Positions 23,739 to 51,078 are shown, counted from the first letter of the stretch. The stretch: DNA of 64,000 nt from Halostella pelagica (GCA_005954745.1 CP040678.1:3038001-3102000); one strand, 5' to 3'. Made by a program: numbers and translations. Notes: a model not told the origin generated them from the letters alone.

Positions 23739-24587
23739 ATGGACGGGCGGGCACGCGCTCCGGCGGCCGGGACGGTGTTGAACGCGCTAGCCTGCGGTAC
23801 TGGGTCGGCGTTCGCCATCGACGAGTACACCGCCGCCGAAGTCACGCTTGACGGACGCGGCGGCGTCGACGGCGAGATAGCCGGCGCGCCCGACGCCGAC
23901 ACCAGCCTGATCGAACGCTGCGTCGAACTCGTCGCCGCGGAGTTCGGTGACGGACAGGGCGGGACGGTCCGGACTGAGAGCGAGGTGCCGATGGCGTCCG
24001 GTCTGAAGAGTTCCAGCGCGGCCGCGAACGCGACGGTGCTCGCGACGCTCGACGCGCTCGGCGTCGACACCGTCGACCGGAAGTCGGCCTGCCTGCTCGG
24101 CGTAGAGGCTGCCCGCGACGTCGGCGTCACGGTCACCGGCGCGTTCGACGACGCCAGCGCCAGCATGCTCGGCGGCGTCACTGTCACCGACAACGAGCGC
24201 GACGAACTACTCGCCCGCGACGAGGTGACGTGGGACGTGCTCGTGTGGACTCCGCCGGAGCAGTCGTTTTCGGCGGACGCAGACGTAGAGCGGTGCCGGC
24301 GGATCGCGCCGGTCGCGGAACTCGTCGCCGATCTCGCACTCGACAGCGAGTACGGCCGGGCAATGACGGTCAACGGCTTCGCCTTCGCCGCGGCCCTCGG
24401 CGCTCCCACCGACCCGTTACTGGAGGCGCTACCCGACGTCACCGGCGTTTCGATATCCGGAACCGGCCCCAGTTTCACTGCGGTCGGCGACCGCGAAACC
24501 TTAGAGGAACTACGAGAAACATGGGAGACACGACCAGGAACCACATGGCTAACGACGACACAGACAGACGGCGCACGGACGAGATAA
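23739..24587 (+). CDS. aroK: Archaeal (GHMP-type) shikimate kinase
   Basis: 282 residues from the ATG at 23739 (MDGRARAPAAGTVLNALACGTG). GHMP kinase signatures are VPMASGLKSSSAAANA (the glycine/serine-rich ATP loop) and the C-terminal VSISGTGPSFTAV. This non-homologous replacement of bacterial AroK phosphorylates shikimate in aromatic amino-acid synthesis. The 3' end overlaps the chorismate mutase start by up to 67 bases in another frame, so the two pathway genes are tightly coupled. Confidence 0.94.
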   Translation: MDGRARAPAAGTVLNALACGTGSAFAIDEYTAAEVTLDGRGGVDGEIAGAPDADTSLIERCVELVAAEFGDGQGGTVRTESEVPMASGLKSSSAAANATVLATLDALGVDTVDRKSACLLGVEAARDVGVTVTGAFDDASASMLGGVTVTDNERDELLARDEVTWDVLVWTPPEQSFSADADVERCRRIAPVAELVADLALDSEYGRAMTVNGFAFAAALGAPTDPLLEALPDVTGVSISGTGPSFTAVGDRETLEELRETWETRPGTTWLTTTQTDGARTR

Positions 24588-24850
24588 GCCTCGACGAACT
24601 CCGCGAGGAGATAGAGAGCATCGACCGAGAGTTGGTCGAACTCATCGCGCGACGGACCTACGTCGCAGACACTATCGCGGAGGTCAAAGAGCAGGGGGAC
24701 CTGCCGACCACGGACGAGGCCCAGGAAGAGGCGGTGATAAAACGAGCCGTGGAGAACGCGGAACAGTTCGAGGTGGACCCGAACATAGTGCGCGCCATCT
24801 ACCGCCTGCTCATCGAACTGAACAAAGTTGAGCAACGTGAAAGTAGGTAA
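24545..24850 (+). CDS. aroQ: Chorismate mutase (AroQ type)
   Basis: 101 residues from the ATG at 24545; an in-frame ATG at 24521 would add eight. It is the all-helical AroQ fold: ISLDELREEIESIDRELVELIARRTYVADTIAEVKEQ, with Arg and Lys residues that hold chorismate, then IVRAIYRLLIELNKVEQRESR. It converts chorismate to prephenate. It overlaps aroK. The last 33 bases (LNKVEQRESR-stop) use AT-rich, rare-looking codons (AAA, GTT, CAA, CGT, AGT, AGG) and recur three times downstream, as if the 3' end was exchanged by integration of foreign DNA. Confidence 0.93.
   Translation: MANDDTDRRRTDEISLDELREEIESIDRELVELIARRTYVADTIAEVKEQGDLPTTDEAQEEAVIKRAVENAEQFEVDPNIVRAIYRLLIELNKVEQRESR
24818..24850 (+). 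repeat. Putative attL: 33-bp 3' end of aroQ, copy 0
   Basis: Encodes LNKVEQRESR and the stop. Copies of identical length lie at 26341, 29678 and 33765. This is the copy still attached to aroQ. Its codons are AT-rich compared with the copy at 33765, as expected if an incoming element supplied it. Site function is inferred. Confidence 0.6.
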
Positions 24851-25134
24851 CCGGATTCGACTGTTTCAGGCCTTCTATTGTCGGTCGGATGGCTGATTCT
24901 TCTTCCGGCAGTTGCTCTTTCGTTCCTCAATCGGTGACAGATGACACGGCTCCATAGCCGTCCGGGGCCACTGAATCAAAGAGGGCCCACGTGGCGGAGA
25001 TCGATGCATCACGAAATCCGTTTCGATGCTCTCTGGATTCATTGCCCGTAGTTCGCTCCGTTTCAACTTATATAATACCGATAATACTAGGCAGTCTCCA
25101 GACCTGTCTCGTCACCCTACTCACTGGTAGAACC

Positions 25135-25874
25135 ATGGCTGAGTCACGAACAGATCCGACGGGAGACGAACCGACGAGTCAGGGGTATAACTACAGGCAT
25201 TTCAGCCCGGAGTATTACGACTTCAGAAGCTTCGACGGGCCCGAACCGGGCGACGAAGCCCCCAATTTCGAAGCTGTAACGCTGGAAGGAGAGACGGTCG
25301 AATTTTCGGATTTCAGGGGGAGTTGGTTCGTCCTGGAGACCGGCAGCATCACGTGTCCCATCACGGATTCGAAAGTCCACGTGATGGACGAACTCCAGAA
25401 GCAGTTCGAAGACGTGGTGTTCATCCTGCTGTATACGAGGGAGGCACATCCAGGGGAACATTTCGAGGCTCACGACTCGTTGGAAGCCAAACTCGAACGA
25501 GCACGGACGTTTGCAGCCGAGTACGACGTTGAGCGCACCGTCCTCGTGGACGACGTTGAAGGAACCGCCCACAGGAAATACGGGGGATGCCGAACTCGGT
25601 ACACATCGTGAACCCCGACGGCGTGGTCGTGATGCGAGGCGACTGGAACAACGTACGGACAGTGACGGAGGTGCTCAAAAGTAGGGACGAGAACAGAATC
25701 TACGAACGCGATATCTACCGAGGTAGCCCGGTATTCTTCACACAGAAGAAAGGGGCCACGAGAGTGCTAGCCAATGCAGGCCCACGGGCTGTTTGGGATT
25801 TCATCAGGAATGCGCCGGCACTCGCACTGATGCATCTGAAAAAAGAGTTCAGAAGTAAGCAGTCGAAAAGATAG
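25135..25874 (+). pseudogene. Deiodinase/redoxin-like thioredoxin-fold gene, frameshifted
   Basis: Reading starts at ATG 25135 (MAESRTDPTGDEP). The thioredoxin-fold core GSWFVLETGSITCPITDSKVHVMDELQ and VVFILLYTREAHPGEH match the redoxin/iodothyronine-deiodinase group, with Cys in the GSxTCP active site. The frame breaks at the G-run 25582-25586 and ends in CRTRYTS; the downstream frame, from 25587, continues the protein naturally (MPNSVHIVNPDGVVVMRGDW) to 25874. One missing G explains both. It may be a true mutation or a sequencing error. Restored length is about 247 residues. The function would be thiol-based peroxide or halogen chemistry. Confidence 0.7.
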
Positions 25875-26373
25875 GGTATGGACGAGTGAGAGATTGAGGA
25901 GGACACGCCGGCAACCATAGAGGAGTCGCCTGAAAGGGGAGATGGCGGAGCGGAAACCGGGGGCGAATTTGTTGAGTGTGATGATGGGGAGGTGTGGATG
26001 TCGTCGGTGTCGGGTAACGGTATTGTGAGGAATCAAGGAGCAGTTGCGGGAATGTCACAGACCTCTCCCGAGTCCTCAACAGTCGCTGCGGGGTCGTCGT
26101 GTCGCACTTCTTTGCCAGCCTCTCCATCTACACTCAACTCTCACAGTACACCTATGCCAAGATCCTGGCTGTACAGAACGATTCGGTTCGTTTGAGCGGG
26201 CCTCGCTGAACTGCTTACATCTAACCACCATCGCGTATTTATAAGCGAATGCGTTTCAGCGACTCTATCCATCGATAACGACACCCTTGAATTCGAGAAA
26301 TCCCCTATTTTCAGGAGAACCTATCATGGATTTCAGCTACCTGAACAAGGTCGAACAGCGGGAGAGGCGGTAA
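25875..26373 (+). repeat. Right-end repeat A of island segment 1
   Basis: About 500 bp related to 29273-29710. Shared blocks include ATGGACGAGTGAGAGAT near the left edge, GATTCGGTTCGTTTGAG in the middle, a TTTATA box (near 26237), TTGAAT and ATCATGGATTT just before the 33-bp repeat. Copy A is longer by roughly 60 bases in the middle. No convincing gene lies inside. In both copies the 33-bp site is preceded by an in-frame ATG, giving a 15-codon mini-frame. Confidence 0.7.
26341..26373 (+). repeat. aroQ 3'-end repeat, copy 1
   Basis: Encodes LNKVEQRERR and TAA, in the same orientation and length as the end of aroQ, but with different synonymous codons (AAG, GTC, GAA, CAG, CGG). The protein-level match together with base changes points to an end taken from a related aroQ gene. 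Possible attachment site. Confidence 0.6.
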
Positions 26374-26519
26374 ACCGCAAGAAGAGGCGGTAGTGGTGAT
26401 TCTCGACCGTGATCTCTTTGTCGACGTCGAGCTGCCAGTCGATTTGTGTATGTTGAAGTTTTCTGATCATATAGGAAGCGTCAAGTGTTTTAATATGGCC
26501 ACAGGGTGAACCTTTTCAT
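26374..26519 (-). other. Possible minus-strand coding remnant
   Basis: On the minus strand one frame runs without stops from about 26455 leftwards and reads DWQLDVDKEITVENHHYRLF, which has a protein-like composition, but there is no start or known domain. It may be a decayed gene fragment at the left end of segment 2. The right part (26488-26495) carries a TATA-like TTTAATAT, 25 bases before the next ATG. Confidence 0.25.
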
Positions 26520-26681
26520 ATGGTCTCCACGCTGACCATCGGAGCCATCCTGACGCTCCTCGCGTGGATTTGGCTGCAAATCACCGTCGTTCACGGCAAA
26601 TACGTCGTGGATAAAATCGCCGATAACGATTATCGGAAAGGCCCGTTTGACAGGCCGCGTGACGGTGATTCTCATGAGTGA
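26520..26681 (+). CDS. 53-residue membrane peptide overlapping the permease
   Basis: ATG at 26520, TGA at 26679-26681. Residues 4-25 form one hydrophobic helix (TLTIGAILTLLAWIWLQITV), then a charged tail (HGKYVVDKIADNDYRKGPFDRPRDGDSHE). Its last codons overlap the permease start by eight bases (ATGAGTGA), so translation is probably coupled. A TATA-like box lies 25 bases upstream, making this the first gene of the unit. It could be a small accessory subunit of the transporter. No family recognised; the call rests on the overlap, promoter spacing and composition. Confidence 0.6.
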   Translation: MVSTLTIGAILTLLAWIWLQITVVHGKYVVDKIADNDYRKGPFDRPRDGDSHE

Positions 26682-29097
26682 CGAGGAAGGTCTTCCCGGC
26701 CATAGTGATAACGAGGATCTCGCTCGCGACCTCTCATTATTCGATATCACGATGATCGGCGTAGGCGCTATGATCGGCGCCGGTATCTTCGTTCTCACAG
26801 GACTTGCAGCAGGCCAAGCTGGCCCCGGACTCGTGATGGCGTTCGCGTTCAACGGTTTCATCACTATCTTTACGGGGATGGTGTATGCCGAACTCGGCTC
26901 CGCGATCCCGGAAGCCGGAGGCGGCTATCTCTGGGTTCGCGAGGCGCTTGGACGATCACAGGCCTTCCTCGCTGGCTGGATGTCTTGGTTCGCCCACGCG
27001 GTCGCTGGGTCACTGTACACACTCGGCTTCGGTGCGTTCGTCCACCTGCTTTTGACCGACTACTTCGGCATTCCCCTCTTCCAACCAATCAATCTCGTAG
27101 TTGTATCGATTGGCCCAGAAAAGGTATTCGCTGCATTCGCCGGTGTTCTGTTCGCATACATTAACTTCCGTGGCGCGAAGGAAACTGGCCTCGCAGGCAA
27201 CATCGTGACGATGGTCAAAGTCACCGTCATCTTGGTTCTGGTCGCATTCGGCCTCGGGTACATCTTCGGCAATCCAGCCGAAGCGACTGGTCGCTTCCGT
27301 CCCTTCCTCCCCCGTGACTTCGGTGGCGTCTTCATCGCGATGGGACTGACGTTCATCGCGTTCGAAGGCTATGAGATCATCGTCCAATCCGGTGAAGAGG
27401 TTGTGAACCCGAAGAAATCCGTTCCGAAGGCCGTCTTTTACTCGATGTCTATCGTCGTCACGATCTACATGCTGGTGGCCATCGTCCTCATCGGGGCAGT
27501 CACAGTTACTCCCGACCTGTTCCAGCTAGCTCAGGAGGGGGCGGCAGCAGGCGGTCATGGAGGTGGAAATCTCCCAGAAATCCCGTCCAATATTGAAGAT
27601 GCCGCTGTCTGGGAGATTCTCGGCCATCTCGGTGAACTCGGACTCGCTCGTGCTGCGGGACAGATAATGCCGTACGGAACCATCGTCATCCTCGTGGCTG
27701 GTATCTTCTCGACGCTCTCGGCGCTGAACGCGACGACGTATTCATCGACGCGTGTTTCGTTCGCGATGGGACGTGACCACGTTCTCCCCGATGCATTTAG
27801 CGAGGTTCATCCCGAGAAACGGACACCACACATCGCAACAGCGTTCTCTGGTGCACTCATTATTTTCATGGCTGTCGCGTTACCGATCGAAGCCGTCGCA
27901 GCGGCAACCGACGTGATGTTCTTGTTGTTGTTCCTTCAGGTGAACTATGCGGCGATCGTCATTCGTCGCGAATGGGGTGACCAGATCGACTACGGGTATG
28001 TCATGCCGTACTTTCCATACGTGCCGATTATCGGGATTCTAACAAAACTCGCTCTTGCCGTCTACCTGTTCAATTACAGCCCACTGGCGTGGTATGGAGC
28101 GACAGCATGGATTCTGGTCGGTGTGGGGATCTTCTTCCTGTACTCTCGAGGTCGTGTCCGGGAGACAGAGGCCAAAGAAGAGACGCGACTCATAACAGAA
28201 GAGCGCGCTCCCGAGGAACGCGGCTACCAGGTGCTGGTTCCGATTGCAAACCCGGCAAACGCGGAACAGGTCATTCGAGTCGCCAGCGCCGTGGCCCGTC
28301 ACAACGATGGTGAGCTACTGCTGACGAGTGTCGCGACAGTGCCCGGGCAAACGCCCCTGTCGGAGGGACGCCAGTTCGCGGACGAACAGCGGGAAGTGCT
28401 TGACGAGGCAATGCAGTACGCTCCTGACGATGTACCCGTCCATCGAACAGTGACGATCGGTCACGATATCGGGAAGAGTATTAACAACGTGGCCTACCAG
28501 CGGGATAGCGACTTGATATTACTCGGCTGGCGGGGGCAACGGAAGCGGTTCTCTGACTACGCATTAGGTTCGAATATTGACATAGTTGTTGAAAACGCCG
28601 AATGCGACGTCGGAGTAGTCAAGACAGCCGAGCCACTGGTGCCAGCCCGGACGCTCATGCCGACTGCTAGCGGGGTCAACGAAGACTTGGCACTACTCTT
28701 TGCGTCTGCGTACGCAGAAGCCGGATCTAATGTGACACTGTTCAATGTGGCGACCGACGGCGATGTCGAGGAGGCCAAATCGTCCCTCGCCGACAAACAG
28801 GAGGTCTTAGCTGAATCAGATATCGACGTGGATCTCGATGTGAAAGAAGGTGAGGATATCGCAGAGACGATCCTCAGCTATGCTCGTGATGAAGAGTTTG
28901 AGTCAATTATCATCGGGGCTGCTAGTGAAGGTATTCTTCGCCGTGTATTGTTCGGTGAAATCCCTGAGACTGTTGGCGAGGAGTTCGAGAAGGAGGTGGT
29001 AATGGTTCGAAAACATCGTCCTGTACAGTCGGCGGTAAAGGGATTCGTTCGAAAATGGATTGGGAAAGGCGCCAGAGCAACGAACCTCGACGAGTAA
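26674..29097 (+). CDS. APC-family permease with C-terminal universal stress domains
   Basis: 807 residues from the ATG at 26674 (MSDEEGLPGHSDN). Residues 20-490 hold about 12 membrane helices with the APC family start motif IGVGAMIGAGIFVLTG and the EGYEIIVQSGEEVVNPKKSVPKA loop. After a charged linker come two UspA-like domains (about 505-640 and 650-780), the first with VLVPIANPANAEQVI and the second degenerate. Members move amino acids or amines; the Usp domains may sense ATP or stress. Fusion of APC and Usp is frequent in haloarchaea. Codon use is less GC-biased than in flanking core genes, and the gene is bracketed by right-end repeats, suggesting acquisition. Confidence 0.9.
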   Translation: MSDEEGLPGHSDNEDLARDLSLFDITMIGVGAMIGAGIFVLTGLAAGQAGPGLVMAFAFNGFITIFTGMVYAELGSAIPEAGGGYLWVREALGRSQAFLAGWMSWFAHAVAGSLYTLGFGAFVHLLLTDYFGIPLFQPINLVVVSIGPEKVFAAFAGVLFAYINFRGAKETGLAGNIVTMVKVTVILVLVAFGLGYIFGNPAEATGRFRPFLPRDFGGVFIAMGLTFIAFEGYEIIVQSGEEVVNPKKSVPKAVFYSMSIVVTIYMLVAIVLIGAVTVTPDLFQLAQEGAAAGGHGGGNLPEIPSNIEDAAVWEILGHLGELGLARAAGQIMPYGTIVILVAGIFSTLSALNATTYSSTRVSFAMGRDHVLPDAFSEVHPEKRTPHIATAFSGALIIFMAVALPIEAVAAATDVMFLLLFLQVNYAAIVIRREWGDQIDYGYVMPYFPYVPIIGILTKLALAVYLFNYSPLAWYGATAWILVGVGIFFLYSRGRVRETEAKEETRLITEERAPEERGYQVLVPIANPANAEQVIRVASAVARHNDGELLLTSVATVPGQTPLSEGRQFADEQREVLDEAMQYAPDDVPVHRTVTIGHDIGKSINNVAYQRDSDLILLGWRGQRKRFSDYALGSNIDIVVENAECDVGVVKTAEPLVPARTLMPTASGVNEDLALLFASAYAEAGSNVTLFNVATDGDVEEAKSSLADKQEVLAESDIDVDLDVKEGEDIAETILSYARDEEFESIIIGAASEGILRRVLFGEIPETVGEEFEKEVVMVRKHRPVQSAVKGFVRKWIGKGARATNLDE

Positions 29098-29272
29098 ATT
29101 ACCATGCCCAATATCGCGTTGGGGAAGTTCCCGTCACTAAGACGCTCAGCCGGTGCTCGGGCCGGTTCGAACTGGTGAATTGATCTCAAGGCCAGCTCAT
29201 CTCCTGTTGATTTGTTCGACACCCCTCGTTGTGAGTGGTTGGGTACTCTACGTGTCCGGACGAGCAACTGCT

Positions 29273-29710
29273 GGGAATGGACGAGTGAGAGATGAAGGAG
29301 AACGCGAGGGCGATCGTGGAAGAATCGACGTAAATGGGAGATGGTGAGCACAAACGGGGGGAATGGGTTGAGTGCGGTGATGAGGAGCTGTGGAAGTCGC
29401 CGGTGCCGGGGTGCAGTATTGCGAGGAGTACGTGAATGGGCAGTTTCGGGAACAACCTCTCTATCCACTCTCGACTCTCGTAGTACACCCATACCAATAT
29501 CTTGGCTGTACAGAAGGATTCGGTTCGTTTGAGGGGCCTTCGAGGAACTCCTCGCATCCTCCCATTGCCGCGTCTTTATATACGATTGCGTTTCAGTGCG
29601 TGTACCGATAAATAACGATGCCTTTGAATCCGAAACACCTTCTATTTTCACAGATATCTATCATGGATTTAATCTACCTGAACAAGGTTGAGCAGCGGGA
29701 GAATCGGTAG
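29273..29710 (+). repeat. Right-end repeat B of island segment 2
   Basis: About 440 bp related to 25875-26373, in the same orientation, so the permease gene and its small partner lie between direct repeats. Shared landmarks: ATGGACGAGTGAGAGAT (29277), GATTCGGTTCGTTTGAG, a TTTATATA box near 29575, and ATCATGGATTT before the 33-bp site. The whole gap 29098-29978 contains only this repeat, the 33-bp site and the hairpin element at 29728; I see no gene. Confidence 0.7.
29678..29710 (+). repeat. aroQ 3'-end repeat, copy 2
   Basis: Encodes LNKVEQRENR and TAG. It ends segment 2. Codons are intermediate between copies 0 and 3. Immediately after it (29711-29727) begins the left end of segment 3, interrupted by the hairpin element. 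Confidence 0.6.
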
Positions 29711-29727
29711 ACGGACTCGGGTGGTTC

Positions 29728-29810
29728 ATACTGTCGGCTGTAACTTCGTAAAGATAATCGGACCACCGCCGGGGCTCCGATATTCTTTAACGGATTACAG
29801 CGGACAGTAT
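29728..29810. repeat. 83-bp hairpin element, copy 2 (MITE-like)
   Basis: Inverted ends ATACTGTCGGCTGTA (29728-29742) and, with one mismatch, its complement (29796-29810). It is related over its whole length to 5533-5613, including CTTCG near the left arm and CCGATATTCT near the right. The two halves also pair with each other internally. It interrupts sequence resembling the left end of segment 1, so it looks like a later insertion. Confidence 0.75.
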
Positions 29811-29978
29811 CAGGGGTTCGACTGACAGTCGGCCAGTCAGACTTTCTTCCGGGAGTCGTTTTCCTTTGCCGCTCGATTAGTTAGAAGCGGAACGACGACC
29901 CCCTCTAGAGATGGTTTGAGAGGCATCTTTTATCACCGCCGCGTGTAGCGGAACCTACTCTCACCGGGAGGCCAACCA

Positions 29979-30221
29979 ATGACCGACGCAATCACTGAGA
30001 AGTTCAGTCAGCACCAACCGCAGTCTCTCGACCAGTCTCGAAACGACCGGGCCGGGCACAGTCTTCGCCGTGGGTGGGTAGTAGCCTCTGTTCCGGGAAT
30101 GCAGCCACGATCTCCCACCCGAAACCTCGTTTTAGGCGCGATGTGCGTCCTCGTTCTCGGTGTTCTCACCAGTATCCTCGCGACGGTTCAAGTCAGCTAC
30201 CGACCCTACGGAGGCTGTTAA
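29979..30221 (+). CDS. Small single-pass membrane protein, hypothetical
   Basis: 80 residues starting at ATG 29979, preceded at about 10 bases by GGGAGG, a plausible ribosome-binding site. A hydrophilic N-terminal half is followed by one strong hydrophobic helix (LVLGAMCVLVLGVLTSILATV, near 49-70) and a short tail. No family recognised. It sits alone at the left of segment 3; the stretch 30222-30458 behind it holds no gene. Confidence 0.4.
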   Translation: MTDAITEKFSQHQPQSLDQSRNDRAGHSLRRGWVVASVPGMQPRSPTRNLVLGAMCVLVLGVLTSILATVQVSYRPYGGC

Positions 30222-30458
30222 CGGGAAACACGAGACCCCGGATCACTGGCGACCCGACCGCGGTAGTTGTGGACCGCGCCGAAACAATCCCTATGACTAC
30301 GGCCGGACCGCAACGGAGTTCCGCTTCTGACCAGCATCTGATCGAGGCTCCTGCTCCGCTGACCTGGAAACATTTGATATCCGAACGTATGGCCACTAGC
30401 GCTATCTAGAGAGGCGTTTCAAGCGCATTGACAGTCCAAACTCACAGGGTGATATCCC

Positions 30459-30911
30459 ATGGCACAGGCCACCCCAGACGCCGAACAGATCGTGACTGCG
30501 TACGTTGCTATGTGGAACGACCGGGACTACGCGAAAATCCCAGAACTCGTTTCAGAGTCGTTCGTGATGTACGATACAAACGCACCCGCGGACGACATAC
30601 CTGGCCCAGCGGGTGAGGTCCACGGCCCGGACGGACTGGAGGCGTGGATACGCGCAATCACGACCGCCTTCCCAGACTTCGAGGCGGACATTCAAGAGAT
30701 ACTGGCCAGCGACGACCGGGTGATGTACGAGGTGACCCTCTCTGGGACACACGAGGGAGAGTTCGCCGGAATTCCACCGACGGGCCGGGAGATCGAGCTT
30801 TCCGGGATGGAATCGTACCGCGTCGCAGACGGTGCCGTCCAAGAACATCGGACCTACTACGACCGGCAGGAATTCCTGAACCAACTCGGACTCACGGACG
30901 ACGCGACCTAA
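30459..30911 (+). CDS. SnoaL-like/ester cyclase-type NTF2-fold protein
   Basis: 150 residues. EQIVTAYVAMWNDRDYAKIPELVSESFVMYD opens a SnoaL/NTF2-like cone fold, followed by GPDGLEAWIRAITTAFPDFEADIQEILASDDRV and the family signature GTHEGEFAGIPPTGREIELSGMESYRVADG. Members include polyketide cyclases and many small-molecule enzymes of unknown substrate. It is first of four related genes here (next at 30930, 31382, 33113). The 60 bases before the ATG are partly repeated at 36145, pointing to duplication of promoter plus gene start. Confidence 0.85.
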   Translation: MAQATPDAEQIVTAYVAMWNDRDYAKIPELVSESFVMYDTNAPADDIPGPAGEVHGPDGLEAWIRAITTAFPDFEADIQEILASDDRVMYEVTLSGTHEGEFAGIPPTGREIELSGMESYRVADGAVQEHRTYYDRQEFLNQLGLTDDAT

Positions 30912-30929
30912 CAGTCGGAGGCTCCACAA

Positions 30930-31361
30930 ATGGCCACAACAACCACCGAGGAGAACGAGCAACTCGCACGCGACCACTTCACACGCGTGTGGAACCACGG
31001 CGAGTTCGATACGGACGTCCTCACGGATGACTTTCGGGTCCACACGCACAGCGGCGGGCACGAGACCTACACACTAGACGAGTTCCGGGAGGTCATCGCC
31101 CAAGCACGCGAGTCGATACCCGATCTACGCAAAGAACCGGACGACGTGTTCGCGGCCGACGACAGAGTAACGATCCAGTACACCATGACCGGCACTCAGG
31201 AAGGCGAGTTCAAGGGTGTTCCACCGACCGGGAAGGAGGTCGAGATTGCCGGCGTTGCCGTCTACAGGATAGAAGACGGCGGACTCGCAGAATCGTGGTT
31301 CGTCGCCGACTTCTTGCGGGCGATGAAACAGCTCGGGGTCATCGAACCGTCTGAAGAATAA
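30930..31361 (+). CDS. SnoaL-like NTF2-fold protein, second paralogue
   Basis: 143 residues, 18 bases behind the first paralogue, with a ribosome-binding-like GGAGG before the ATG, so probably the same operon. It has the same layout: ARDHFTRVWNHGEFDTDVL, LDEFREVIAQARESIPDLRKEPDDVFAADDRVTIQYTMTGTQEGEFKGVPPTGKEVEI and a C-terminal MKQLGVIEP tail. Divergence from its neighbour is considerable, so it is not a recent tandem duplicate. Confidence 0.85.
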   Translation: MATTTTEENEQLARDHFTRVWNHGEFDTDVLTDDFRVHTHSGGHETYTLDEFREVIAQARESIPDLRKEPDDVFAADDRVTIQYTMTGTQEGEFKGVPPTGKEVEIAGVAVYRIEDGGLAESWFVADFLRAMKQLGVIEPSEE

Positions 31362-31381
31362 CGTGGGCGAAAGTGAACACA

Positions 31382-31811
31382 ATGGCAACTATCGAATAAG
31401 ATAACAGAGCAGTCGTGTGCCGGTTTTTCGACGCGTGGAACGAGGCGAACTTCGAAGTCGTCGACGACGTAGTGGCCGCCGATGCCGAGCAGCACAATCC
31501 CCAAGAACCACCCGTCCCGCCCGGCCCGGAGGAAAAAAGCGGCTCATCGGATGTCCCACTCTGCGTTCTCCGATGCGACGCTCGCCGTCGAGGAAATGGT
31601 TGCAGACGGTGACAGTGTCGCCGTCCGCTATACAGCTACGGGAACGCACGACGGCGAATTCATGGGGGTGGAACCGACGGGGACCGACGTCGAGATAGTC
31701 GGCTTCGAAATCAACTGGCTCGCAGATGGTCGGATCGTCGAATCGTGGGGGCTCTTCGACACGTTCGGGTTGATGCAGCAACTCGGTGTCGTTGATCCGC
31801 CCGGGGAGTGA
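31382..31811 (+). pseudogene. SnoaL-like paralogue, disrupted
   Basis: Starts at ATG 31382 right after the second paralogue, but codon 6 is TAA (31397-31399). The frame then reads RAVVCRFFDAWNEANFEVVDDVV, clearly SnoaL N-terminal, and is lost near the A-run around 31534. The end of the gene resumes in another frame (FSDATLAVEEMVADGDSVAVRYTATGTHDGEFMGVEPTG...) to the stop at 31811. At least one nonsense change and one frameshift are needed, so it is a decaying third copy rather than a simple sequencing slip. The 31812-32033 gap holds nothing recognisable. Confidence 0.8.
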
Positions 31812-32033
31812 CAGAGGCTGTTGTACCTGTGTACCGGTATTGCCGGCCCTGTGTCGGAGAAATACCGAAACGACTTACAACAGTCCAGAGCGGCGATCGG
31901 CACCGATCCCGTTTTCGGCAGTGACGTTCGAAGAGTTCCGGCAGCGGCGGATCTTCGCTACATCACCTACCAAGAGTATCCACACGGGTACAGTGTCGGT
32001 CCTTCTGATACCGTCCGTGGGGATAGTGTCCTC

Positions 32034-32834
32034 TCACTCCGACGGTAACAGTGCAGGATCGAGCGGCTCTGCCCTGGCCCGGTATTCCTCGTACAATGAC
32101 TCCGCCCACGAAACGACATCCGAGTGCGTACACTCTAAAAGCCCCTTTACGAACACGTCGTCACCGGTCTGGTTGTCGTCGCACAACCAGATCAGGATCG
32201 TTCCATCGATAATGTGGATATTGAGCGGAACGCGACCGTCGTAGAGCCACATCCGTTCGGCGATGTCCTGCCAGAGGGCCGCCCGCTCCGGGTCATCCCT
32301 GAGAACGTCGATGAAGCTCGCTTCGATGACTCCCTCGAAATCGAGCTGTCCCGTAACGACGCGGCCACGAATCGTTTTCATATACTCGGGGAGTGAGTTC
32401 TGGGTGAGACCACGGTAGCTGTCGCTCCCCCTGAAGTGGTCTATCGCGCGGTCGAAGTGGGCGGTCGGATTGGTCTCCGTCGGAGTCGTGATCTCGGCCT
32501 CACGGAAGCACCGAAAGTCGAGTTCCCAGGCCGGGTCGGGCAACCAGTCGATCGCCGGACCGAGATGGCGAATCCCTTCCGTCGCCGCCAGATACCTCCG
32601 GAACTCCGTTATCATCGCCTCTCCCAGGGAGGTGAGCCAGTACCTGCTTCCCTCCGATCTGACCCAGTCCCGGGCTTCGGCATCATCGAGTACCCGTGCG
32701 GCTGTTGATCGGGGCACCCCGGTCGCGTCTTGGAGTTCACGGCGGGACGCTGCGCCACTAGTGAGTTCCTCCAGTATCTGGATGCGATTGGCCGAGTTCG
32801 CCAGGAACTGGATGTCATCGAGAGTGGCGTCCAT
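32034..32834 (-). CDS. wHTH regulator with C-terminal effector-type domain
   Basis: 266 residues from the ATG at 32832-32834 (MDATLDDIQFLANSANRIQIL). A MarR/ArsR-type winged helix (about 1-85, GAASRRELQDATGVPRSTAARVLDDAEARDWV) precedes a 170-residue domain like the FilR1-type regulatory domain common in haloarchaeal HTH proteins. The frame is open upstream to 33119, but that part is arginine-rich shadow over the divergent SnoaL gene. It is convergent with the broken SnoaL copy and divergent from the intact one at 33113, so it may control them. Effector unknown. Confidence 0.85.
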   Translation of the reverse strand: MDATLDDIQFLANSANRIQILEELTSGAASRRELQDATGVPRSTAARVLDDAEARDWVRSEGSRYWLTSLGEAMITEFRRYLAATEGIRHLGPAIDWLPDPAWELDFRCFREAEITTPTETNPTAHFDRAIDHFRGSDSYRGLTQNSLPEYMKTIRGRVVTGQLDFEGVIEASFIDVLRDDPERAALWQDIAERMWLYDGRVPLNIHIIDGTILIWLCDDNQTGDDVFVKGLLECTHSDVVSWAESLYEEYRARAEPLDPALLPSE

Positions 32835-33112
32835 GTGACCAAGTAGCACTCCATTCGGTAAATAGTCGCCAGTAGATGGACAGGGAGTGCGTAACTCGGT
32901 CCGACAGCCTAGATACAGGGGACAACGTACGTACATCCACGCCGTGTGAGGTGTTTCGAGGCGTACCCACACGTCGAAGATCGCAACAGTGGTGGTGCAA
33001 GCCAGCGGGTCAGACTCCGAAGAGAAACGTGTCAGTGGTATTACTGTGGGAGCGTTCCTGCCGAGTAAGGCCAAACGACTGCATCCCGTCTGTTGGTGTG
33101 GGTGGAACACCC

Positions 33113-33538
33113 ATGGCACAGTCTACATCGGACGTCGAACAGTGCGTCGAAGAGTGGATAGATGTTTGGAACACCGGCGGGTACGAGCGCCTTCCAGACG
33201 TTCTCGACGAGTCAGCCACGGTGTACGATCCCGGCGCTCCGGGCGGAGTGCTAGAGGGACGTGAGGAGTTCGAAGCCCACCTGCGAGAGCTACGAGCGGG
33301 GTTCCCGGATTTCACCATCGGGATAGCGGAGATGCTCTCGGAGGACGGAATCGTCATGACGGAGTGGACAGCGACGGCCACACACGAAGGGGAATTCAAC
33401 GGCATCCCGGCAACCGACCGCGAGATCGAATTCCAAGGAATGTCGAAAACGGAGATCCGAGACAGCGAAATCGTAGAGGACCGGATCTATCACGATTTCC
33501 ACGCCTTCTTGGAACAGCTCGGTCTCACCGAGACGTAG
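33113..33538 (+). CDS. SnoaL-like/ester cyclase-type protein, fourth paralogue
   Basis: 141 residues from ATG 33113 (MAQSTSDVEQCVEEWIDVWNTGGYERLPDVL). It shares FPDFTIGIAEMLSEDGIVMTEWTATATHEGEFNGIPATDREIEFQGMSKTEI with the first paralogue at 30459, including the MAQxTxDxEQ start. It lies divergent from the regulator at 32034-32834, with a 278-base shared upstream region. Substrate unknown. Confidence 0.85.
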   Translation: MAQSTSDVEQCVEEWIDVWNTGGYERLPDVLDESATVYDPGAPGGVLEGREEFEAHLRELRAGFPDFTIGIAEMLSEDGIVMTEWTATATHEGEFNGIPATDREIEFQGMSKTEIRDSEIVEDRIYHDFHAFLEQLGLTET

Positions 33539-33764
33539 GAACGTCCCTTCTCTCTACCGGTTCCCCTCTTCCCAGACCGGCACTCACCCCATCGCTTGAG
33601 AGTTTCCAATAAGACCAATGGACGCTGCTCGCTGAAACGCCAGCATCGCCCGTTTCTACCTTTTATCTGCGATTGAGATCGATTGCCTGTGACACCCGTT
33701 TTTGCCAACCTGAATTCTCAATAGGGTGTTTGTTTCGTTAGGCTGTGTTACAGATTTCGACTCC

Positions 33765-33797
33765 CTGAACAAGGTCGAGCAGCGCGGGCAGCGGTAA
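33765..33797 (+). repeat. aroQ 3'-end repeat, outermost copy 3 (putative attR)
   Basis: Encodes LNKVEQRGQR and TAA with uniformly GC-rich, host-like codons (AAG, GTC, GAG, CAG, CGC, GGG, CAG, CGG). Being farthest from aroQ and the most host-like, it is the best candidate for the original aroQ end displaced by integration. The 33539-33914 gap contains only this repeat and the segment-3 right end. Confidence 0.55.
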
Positions 33798-39274: not shown

Positions 39275-39955
39275 TCAGTACTCCCAGAGCCGCTCGATCC
39301 GCGATTCGATGTCGGGGTGGGCGTCCCGGAGCGCGTCGACGGCGGTTTCACCGCCGACGTTGATGACGTGGACTTCCCCCCGACGCCCGGAGTAGGCGTC
39401 TTGGAAGTCGTACACGACGCCGACGACCTCGACGTCCTGCGGAACGTCGTCGCTCTCTATGAGGAACTCGACCTGTCTGTCGACGTTGTACTCGACGAGC
39501 CGATTGATGGCCTCCGTGCGGTTCACGTCCGACGGAAGGAGTTCGACGCCGCTTTCGAGATGCGGCTTCAGTAGCTCGAGGCAGTGGTCGATACCCGCAG
39601 GCTCGGCACTCTCGCCCGTGAGCGCGTCGTACGTCGCGGTAACGGCTCCACAGCCCGTATGCCCCACGACGATGATAGTGTCCGTTTCGGTGTGTTCGAC
39701 CGGATAGAGAACGTCTCCCGAAACCACGTCGCCGGACTCCGTCCGCTGAACAACGCGGTTGCCGATGTTGCCGCACGTAAAGAGGCGTCCGGGTTCGTCG
39801 TTCCCCCAAATGTGGTCCTGAAGGACGCGGGAGTCGGAACAGCAGACCGTGACCGCGTCCGGCCGCTGGGAGTCCTGTACGTCGTCGAACCGTGACTGAA
39901 ACCGACTGGCGTGGTCTGAATTGCTCCGTAGCAGGTCGAGTAACGCCTGGCTCAT
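39275..39955 (-). CDS. Beta-class carbonic anhydrase
   Basis: 226 residues. Zinc ligands Cys39, His99 and Cys102 and the catalytic dyad Asp41-Arg43 are present in CCSDSR and VVGHTGCGAV. CGNIGNR is the usual active-site loop. Like other beta-CAs it should interconvert CO2 and bicarbonate in the cytoplasm, probably as a dimer. The C-terminal half (RQVEFLIESDDVPQDVEVVGVVYDF) matches the family. It stands alone, in the same direction as the Bat-like gene but 246 bases away. Confidence 0.94.
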   Translation of the reverse strand: MSQALLDLLRSNSDHASRFQSRFDDVQDSQRPDAVTVCCSDSRVLQDHIWGNDEPGRLFTCGNIGNRVVQRTESGDVVSGDVLYPVEHTETDTIIVVGHTGCGAVTATYDALTGESAEPAGIDHCLELLKPHLESGVELLPSDVNRTEAINRLVEYNVDRQVEFLIESDDVPQDVEVVGVVYDFQDAYSGRRGEVHVINVGGETAVDALRDAHPDIESRIERLWEY

Positions 39956-50072: not shown

Positions 50073-51078
50073 ATGAACCTCAAGCAAACCCTGCCGGAAG
50101 ATGCCAAGAATCGGTATCTCAAAGACAAGAAGACCCACGTCAGCAAGAAGACCCTCTCCAACTATAGCACATCGTTGGGTATGTTCTGCAAGTGGTTGAA
50201 CTCGGAGAGAATCACTGATCTCCGTGACCTCGACAGTGACGAAATTCAGCGGTACAAAGAACACCGGCTGGACAACGTTAAGCCGATTACGGCACGGAAT
50301 GATATGTGGACCGTCAAGAACTTCGTTCAGTTCTGCGAGTCTATTCAGGCTGTTCCACAGGGTCTCTCAGAATTAGTTCGTATCCCAAAGGTATCTGAAG
50401 ACGATGAGATTTGCGACGATCTCCTGACCCGTGAAGAGGCTGTAGAACTGCTGGACTATCTTAAGAAGTACGAGTATGCGAGTATCCGTCACGTGACTCT
50501 GCTCATTCTCTGGAAAACTGGAATGCGAGTGGGTGGTCTTCGGTCCCTTGATCTCAAAGACTTCGATGAAGTACGGCCTGCTCTACAACTCAGACATAGG
50601 CCCGACATGGCCACCCCCCTCAAACGTAAGGAAAAGAGCCAACGAGACGTTCTCATTTCCACCGAGACGGCCGATGTGATAGTTGATTATATCGAGAATA
50701 CCCGCCCGGACGTTACTGACGAACACGACCGGGAACCGCTAATTGCGACCGATCACGGACGTATTGCGGAAACAAGCCTACAAAGATACGTCTACACCGC
50801 AACTCGGCCCTGTCACTACACAGGGGCCTGCGCCCTCGACCGTGACCCCAGAGGAGTGCGAGGATAACAGTTGGAATGGGTCGTCTGCCTGCCCCGACTC
50901 AGTAAGCCCTCACGCGCTTCGTAGAGGATATGTGACTGCTGCCCGGAATGCAGGGCAGGCCAAGGATGTGACCGGTGAGCGTGTGAATATGAGCGGGAAG
51001 GTCCTTGACAAACACTACGATAAGGGTTCATTCGGCGAGAAGGCAGAGAGACGGCGTAACCATCTGAAGGACATTTAG
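50073..51078 (+). pseudogene. Tyrosine recombinase/integrase, frameshifted
   Basis: The first frame (50073-50867) has the SAM-like N-terminal domain (KKTLSNYSTSLGMFCKWLNS) and the first catalytic Arg (TGMRVGGLRSL). It then passes into CALDRDPRGVRG and stops. The second frame, ending at 51078, supplies the rest: EECEDNSWNGSS, SPHALRRGYVT (H-x-x-R) and VLDKHYDKGS (Tyr nucleophile). One extra base in the C-run 50846-50850 (CCCCA) would explain the break. Restored, it has all catalytic residues except the usual Glu after Arg-I. It was probably the element's integrase. The 51079-51363 gap holds no gene. Confidence 0.85.

Follow-up and report, generated by a model that had tools for sequence, protein, structure and literature searches.

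The DNA examined here (the window) is a stretch of 64,000 nucleotides from Halostella pelagica (CP040678.1:3038001-3102000), with positions counted from its first letter. The chorismate mutase gene aroQ, an orthologue of which occurs in 386 of 392 genomes of the order, was identified as an ORF at 24545-24850 on the plus strand, and its 3' end forms the primary attachment site. Four copies of this 3' end, all plus-strand and identically oriented, were located: the one within aroQ (site 1, 24818) and displaced copies at 26341, 29678 and 33765. No displaced copy is expected by chance (pattern search of 100 shuffles). The sites divide 24819-33772 into three cassettes, the TGAACAA crossover region of site 1 being placed within aroQ at 24819-24825 (plus strand) by covariation and exact cassette ends. 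Cassette 1 (24826-26341), belonging to family T07, consists of a frameshifted peroxiredoxin-like gene and a distal arm. The gene (25135-25874, plus strand; Pfam AhpC-TSA) is read in two frames, 25135-25611 and 25587-25874, and a relative at another locus (L077) forms one open frame of 277 aa; intact copies exist elsewhere. Displaced site 2 (26326-26373, plus strand) comprises a class A arm (ATGGATTTCAGCTAC), C-TGAACAA (TGAACAA at 26342-26348) and the aroQ tail. Cassette 2 (26349-29678) holds a 53-aa ORF, an amino acid permease gene with C-terminal Usp domains (plus strand; Pfam AA_permease, E 3.9e-42; Usp, E 2.6e-25) and a distal arm, and is followed by displaced site 3 (29663-29710, plus strand; class A arm, TGAACAA at 29679-29685). 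Cassette 3 (29686-33765) was found by Pfam to encode four SnoaL-like proteins and a FilR1-type regulator; these paralogues and the regulator fill it from 30459 to 33538. Displaced site 4 (33750-33797, plus strand; TGAACAA at 33766-33772) is the last of the array.

A sequence-only reading of this region had described a permease gene bracketed by two related direct repeats, forming a unit that might be excised or amplified by recombination. The repeat copies (25874-26375 and 29272-29712, both plus strand) are indeed related and in the same orientation: they share 77% identity over aligned columns, with a best local alignment of E 2e-62 (blastn), and a block of approximately 60 bp in copy 1 is missing from copy 2. 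When the last 60 bp were trimmed, the two still aligned with 176 bits (E 9e-49), whereas 284 random pairs from the window gave at most 34 bits, so similarity at the level of chance can be dismissed. The permease (26677-29097) and the small ORF (26520-26681) do lie between the repeats, and pattern search confirmed the aroQ tail at the end of both, together with a third displaced tail (33753-33797) that had been overlooked. What does not hold is the bracketing itself: copy 1 consists of cassette 1's distal arm and a displaced aroQ tail, copy 2 is the equivalent of cassette 2, and the permease cassette, from about 26342 to 29678, therefore owns only the second. The arms, of approximately 450 bp in this window, contain interrupted frames, and a coding test on the two copies gave 10, 13 and 17 mismatches in the three codon phases. 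No match to the repeat was found among phage records, and Rfam analysis of the window returned tRNA-Thr only.

The position of the crossover was mapped by comparing displaced sites. Site pairs with a common upstream cassette type show high identity up to position -1 that drops after about position 8, and pairs with a common downstream cassette show the reverse. The left flank accordingly tracks the upstream cassette and the right flank the downstream one, the switch lying within the invariant TGAACAA. For cassette family T08, identity between copies begins at TGAACAA at the left end, and at the right end it passes through TGAACAA to a mismatch at the very next base. The strongest dyad symmetry has this 7-bp spacer at its centre, with short and imperfect arms. 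The working site is the aroQ tail of approximately 40 bp, with the crossover within TGAACAA. Folding analysis of 50 displaced sites found no attC-like single-strand structure (mean z -0.63; six below -2).

These ends bear on how the repeats of the window arose. Homologous recombination or local duplication between the 450-bp repeats would suit their 77% identity over their length, but it is highly improbable: in most arrays successive cassettes have only the tail of approximately 40 bp in common, the identity of a transferred cassette ends abruptly at TGAACAA on both sides, and empty sites are also found. The mobile unit first envisaged, with its recombination end at the aroQ-like tail, stands; recombination between the repeats, which are no more than about 77% identical, is discarded. 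Some transposases duplicate the 3' ends of genes, and insertion of a transposon or casposon that duplicated its target site at the 3' end of aroQ was considered in that light; it is barely conceivable here, however, as the repeated tail is an inexact duplication whose right half belongs to the incoming cassette, and neither a transposase nor Cas1 was identified among annotated cassettes.

Approximately 103 cassettes were delimited across the genomes compared (104 list entries, one of them an artefact), with a median size near 1 kb. Eleven families (T01-T11) recur between genomes in varying order and position; examples are T01-T02, T01-T03, T03-T02, T02 ahead of T03, and T05 on either side of T01. 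Small cassettes are mostly 0.7-1.5 kb in size with cargo genes on either strand, and compact forms of 720 bp or 750 bp with exact ends recur in many genera at different positions. Many encode toxin-antitoxin pairs: T01 carries a PemK/MazF toxin, T02, T04 and T05 carry PIN-domain toxins, and in T03, going by the ORFs, a RelE-like toxin gene is accompanied by an RHH-like partner. Among other families, the cargo of T07 is AhpC-like, that of T08 is annotated as an ATPase and that of T09 is a NicO transporter. The 5.46-kb T08 cassette is 100% identical over aligned bases between a plasmid of Halobacterium sp. DL1 and a genome of another family (G162), the copies differing in length by 99 bp and the aroQ genes of the two being 89.5% identical. 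Over 1495 bp, cassette 1 of the window matches cassettes from another family of haloarchaea (f7) at 93.8% identity, with aroQ at 74%. At the level of sequence, these identities establish that whole cassettes have been transferred horizontally.

It could be argued that the cassettes are CIMEs, that is, remnants of larger elements that lost their integrase, accreted in tandem, have ceased to move by themselves and spread only in cis with incoming elements. Such tandem accretion with integrase loss is known in bacteria (PMC5704250), and the interrupted frames of the 450-bp arms and the frameshifted peroxiredoxin gene of cassette 1 would agree with decay. We nevertheless regard this as an unlikely, if serious, contender, as many genera share the 720-bp or 750-bp cassettes, exactly delimited and at varied positions, and as two families have the 5.46-kb cassette in identical form, a match resolved to the single cassette. 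The identical T08 copies and the recurring compact cassettes point instead to discrete, recent movement and not to relics.

The exact site pattern occurs in two or more copies in 112 of 392 Halobacteriales genomes, aroQ itself usually contributing one copy per genome, and a reversed-pattern control gave zero in every genome. Displaced tails, one to six each, were identified at 81 of 116 aroQ loci, a proportion that is no frequency estimate as the loci were picked partly for having tails. Every displaced tail in the first set of Halobacteriales aroQ regions fetched is on the aroQ strand. A longer class A site pattern matched 22 contigs among 84,980 GTDB species, all of them haloarchaeal by title. 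Fourteen pattern matches on viral contigs were rejected, all falling in one conserved coding frame with NKVEQR that is unrelated to aroQ sites. In Halobacterium sp. DL1, Haloterrigena alkaliphila and Halomontanus rarus, annotated plasmids carry aroQ, cargo and a displaced tail. Both aroQ and a shikimate kinase gene are plasmid-borne in three haloarchaea (L043, L044, L045), and a second, chromosomal aroQ is present in Halobacterium sp. DL1. Empty and occupied sites can be compared within one genus (g7): in two genomes (G012, locus L194; G301, locus L199) the conserved flank starts 20-30 bp past aroQ, and in four others (G289, L058; G235, L069; G227, L200; G049, L052) a cassette and displaced tail precede this flank (85-91% identity).

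Displaced sites fall largely into two classes according to their arm, with class A (ATGGATTTCAnCTAC) at 84 of 134 and class E (TGTAACGTnAGTnnnnGAC) at 41; 125 of the 134 thus have an arm of either class, and nine fit neither. Only 0.17% (class A) and 0.14% (class E) of random positions pass the threshold, a comparison that shows clustering and is no independent test, the motifs having been picked from the same data. Some arms (ATTGGATATTATC) presumably resemble the dif site of Pyrococcus. A 15-codon frame ending at the site had been put forward as a possible control or recombination end; it is best read as a by-product, since its ATG falls within the conserved arm motif ATGGATTTCAnCTAC and the other common arm class lacks it. 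An SSV-type interpretation of this frame, with a suicidal integrase, was also rejected: no Int fragment lies behind any aroQ tail of the window, and class E arms do not conserve the ATG.

No recombinase was detected in the small cassettes with the queries used. Rare elements of 32-72 kb at the aroQ site do carry an RHH-helper-tyrosine-recombinase (Int) module, and a tyrosine recombinase was identified behind aroQ in four genomes (G358, G360, G391 and G267). The Int module adjoins aroQ in G358 and G360, whose displaced tails lie 32 kb and 38 kb away, respectively; in G391 Int is located about 0.1 kb past aroQ and the displaced tail 72 kb away, and in G267 Int is 10.6 kb downstream of aroQ with the other end on a separate contig. 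The Int gene is preceded by genes for a protein of approximately 175 aa, weakly similar to the N-terminal core-binding region of Int, and for an RHH/coiled-coil-like protein. Compared with the first of these Ints, the remaining three show 40-52% identity, with the catalytic residues R181, HxxR and Y354 invariant. None of them passed the NCBIfam Xer or integron integrase models, all scoring far below the cut-offs, and Int gave no match among viral contigs or, at E 1e-5, among phage records. The remaining genes of the G358 element are defence-like (Eco57I methylase, SNF2/PLD helicase); with its AAA ATPase, Eco57I-type methylase and PLD/SNF2 helicase, this 32-kb element (L064, L101) resembles a defence island. 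Distally, the G358 and G360 elements end in perfect class A and the G391 element, which has the divergent Int, in perfect class E. This is as expected from trans-mobilisation by two integrase specificities, the connection of Int clade with arm class being drawn from just three elements with both ends known. As the arms of the large elements match classes A and E, it is suggested that aroQ-targeted Ints, or relatives of them, move the cassettes in trans.

An Int module is found neither inside nor near the array of the window, and the closest homologue elsewhere in the same genome is distant (E 1e-23). A tyrosine recombinase gene at 50073-51078 consists of overlapping frames (50073-50867 and 50743-51078), both matching integrases. 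It is probably frameshifted, judging from these frames, and is unrelated to the aroQ array; a phmmer search with the window's own integrase ORF identified no array integrase. There are 12 PF00589 matches in this genome, and a resident host enzyme, XerA or another chromosomal tyrosine recombinase, might move the cassettes as XerCD does pdif modules. The presence of several tyrosine recombinases per genome, the lack of any detected in small cassettes and the similar toxin-antitoxin cargo of pdif modules (PMC13141974) speak for such an enzyme. We consider its involvement quite unlikely, given a 7-bp spacer with short imperfect arms as against the 11-6-11 layout of dif (PMC8371274), and given that the large elements found at this site are equipped with an integrase of their own and share the two arm classes.

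Very probably the locus behind aroQ is an array of gene cassettes that integrate site-specifically, a reading built on site identity, crossover position, modular reuse, empty sites, whole-cassette transfer and small cassettes with no detected recombinase. Features of a tyrosine-recombinase element are present: a 3' end rebuilt by the incoming copy, a far displaced tail and an empty site in relatives. Each cassette would exist as a circle with one attachment site, in which TGAACAA stands between the distal arm and a copy of the aroQ tail. Strand exchange by a tyrosine recombinase would take place inside the 7-bp TGAACAA and involve the circle and either the aroQ 3' end or a displaced tail. The incoming tail would rebuild aroQ and push the old tail downstream, and repeated rounds would thereby give a same-direction array. 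Circular intermediates, excision and the acting enzyme are inferred. We lean towards the aroQ-targeted Ints of the large elements, acting in trans with specificity classes A and E, as the likeliest enzymes. An even chance is given to the wider proposal of an integron-like capture system in haloarchaea, with the end of a housekeeping gene as platform, recombinase-less and largely toxin-antitoxin cassettes moving as circles, and two integrase lineages of large mobile elements mobilising two compatible cassette classes in trans.

In the way they work, the aroQ arrays resemble the cassettes of integrons, pdif modules and tandem CIMEs, and by test they are neither integrons nor pdif modules. With integrons they have in common small tandem cassettes in the same direction with one site each, abundant toxin-antitoxin cargo and a site of tyrosine-recombinase type. 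They differ in having no adjacent IntI, in using the 3' end of a housekeeping gene as platform, in cargo on either strand and in a site that is a short double-strand dyad with no marked hairpin. The pdif modules of Acinetobacter plasmids are also recombinase-less, bounded by tyrosine-recombinase sites and rich in toxin-antitoxin genes, and shuffle between replicons (PMC13141974). Their 28-bp sites (11-6-11, with a 6-bp spacer) alternate in orientation, whereas aroQ sites have a 7-bp spacer, one direction and an origin in aroQ, and a dedicated Int is carried on larger elements at the aroQ site. CIMEs, like the aroQ cassettes, lack an integrase and stack their att sites at a conserved gene's 3' end (PMC5704250), and they adjoin autonomous elements; the autonomous elements of the aroQ site were found in other genomes and not inside the same arrays, and small aroQ cassettes recur across families as discrete units, unlike one-off decayed islands. 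The SNJ2-type integrase is, like the aroQ Int, a haloarchaeal tyrosine integrase encoded in an operon with two small proteins (PMC8371274); the aroQ Int differs in its target, which is aroQ and not a tRNA gene, and in its helpers, an RHH-like protein and a free-standing core-binding-like domain.

The section on protein-coding targets in a review of archaeal tyrosine recombinases does not include aroQ (PMC8371274), and bacterial-like integrons have been reported in archaea (PMC9668308). Searches of open-access papers, hence weak evidence, found nothing on chorismate mutase in connection with haloarchaeal integration, and no description of aroQ cassette arrays was found in the open-access literature. 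Bacterial-like integrons aside, we know of no archaeal platform of this kind at a fixed chromosomal gene. Cassette capture is one of the main routes by which bacteria gather adaptive genes. The aroQ platform, present in at least 29% of sampled Halobacteriales, accounts for gene-content variation behind aroQ; its 7-bp crossover and two arm classes are directly testable, and it may offer a tool for site-specific integration in halophiles.

The TATA-like box noted in the sequence-only reading is real. It was read from the sequence as TTTATAA at 26238-26244 (plus strand) in the distal arm of cassette 1, and a second example lies in a distal arm at 29575-29582. Such boxes are enriched 20-150 bp before displaced tails (28 of 119, against 12 of 595 random positions). 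Those of distal arms point to the next cassette, and a promoter role is possible. Further downstream in the window, a carbonic anhydrase gene (39275-39955) is probably an older neighbour of aroQ, since it sits nearer behind aroQ in several relatives.
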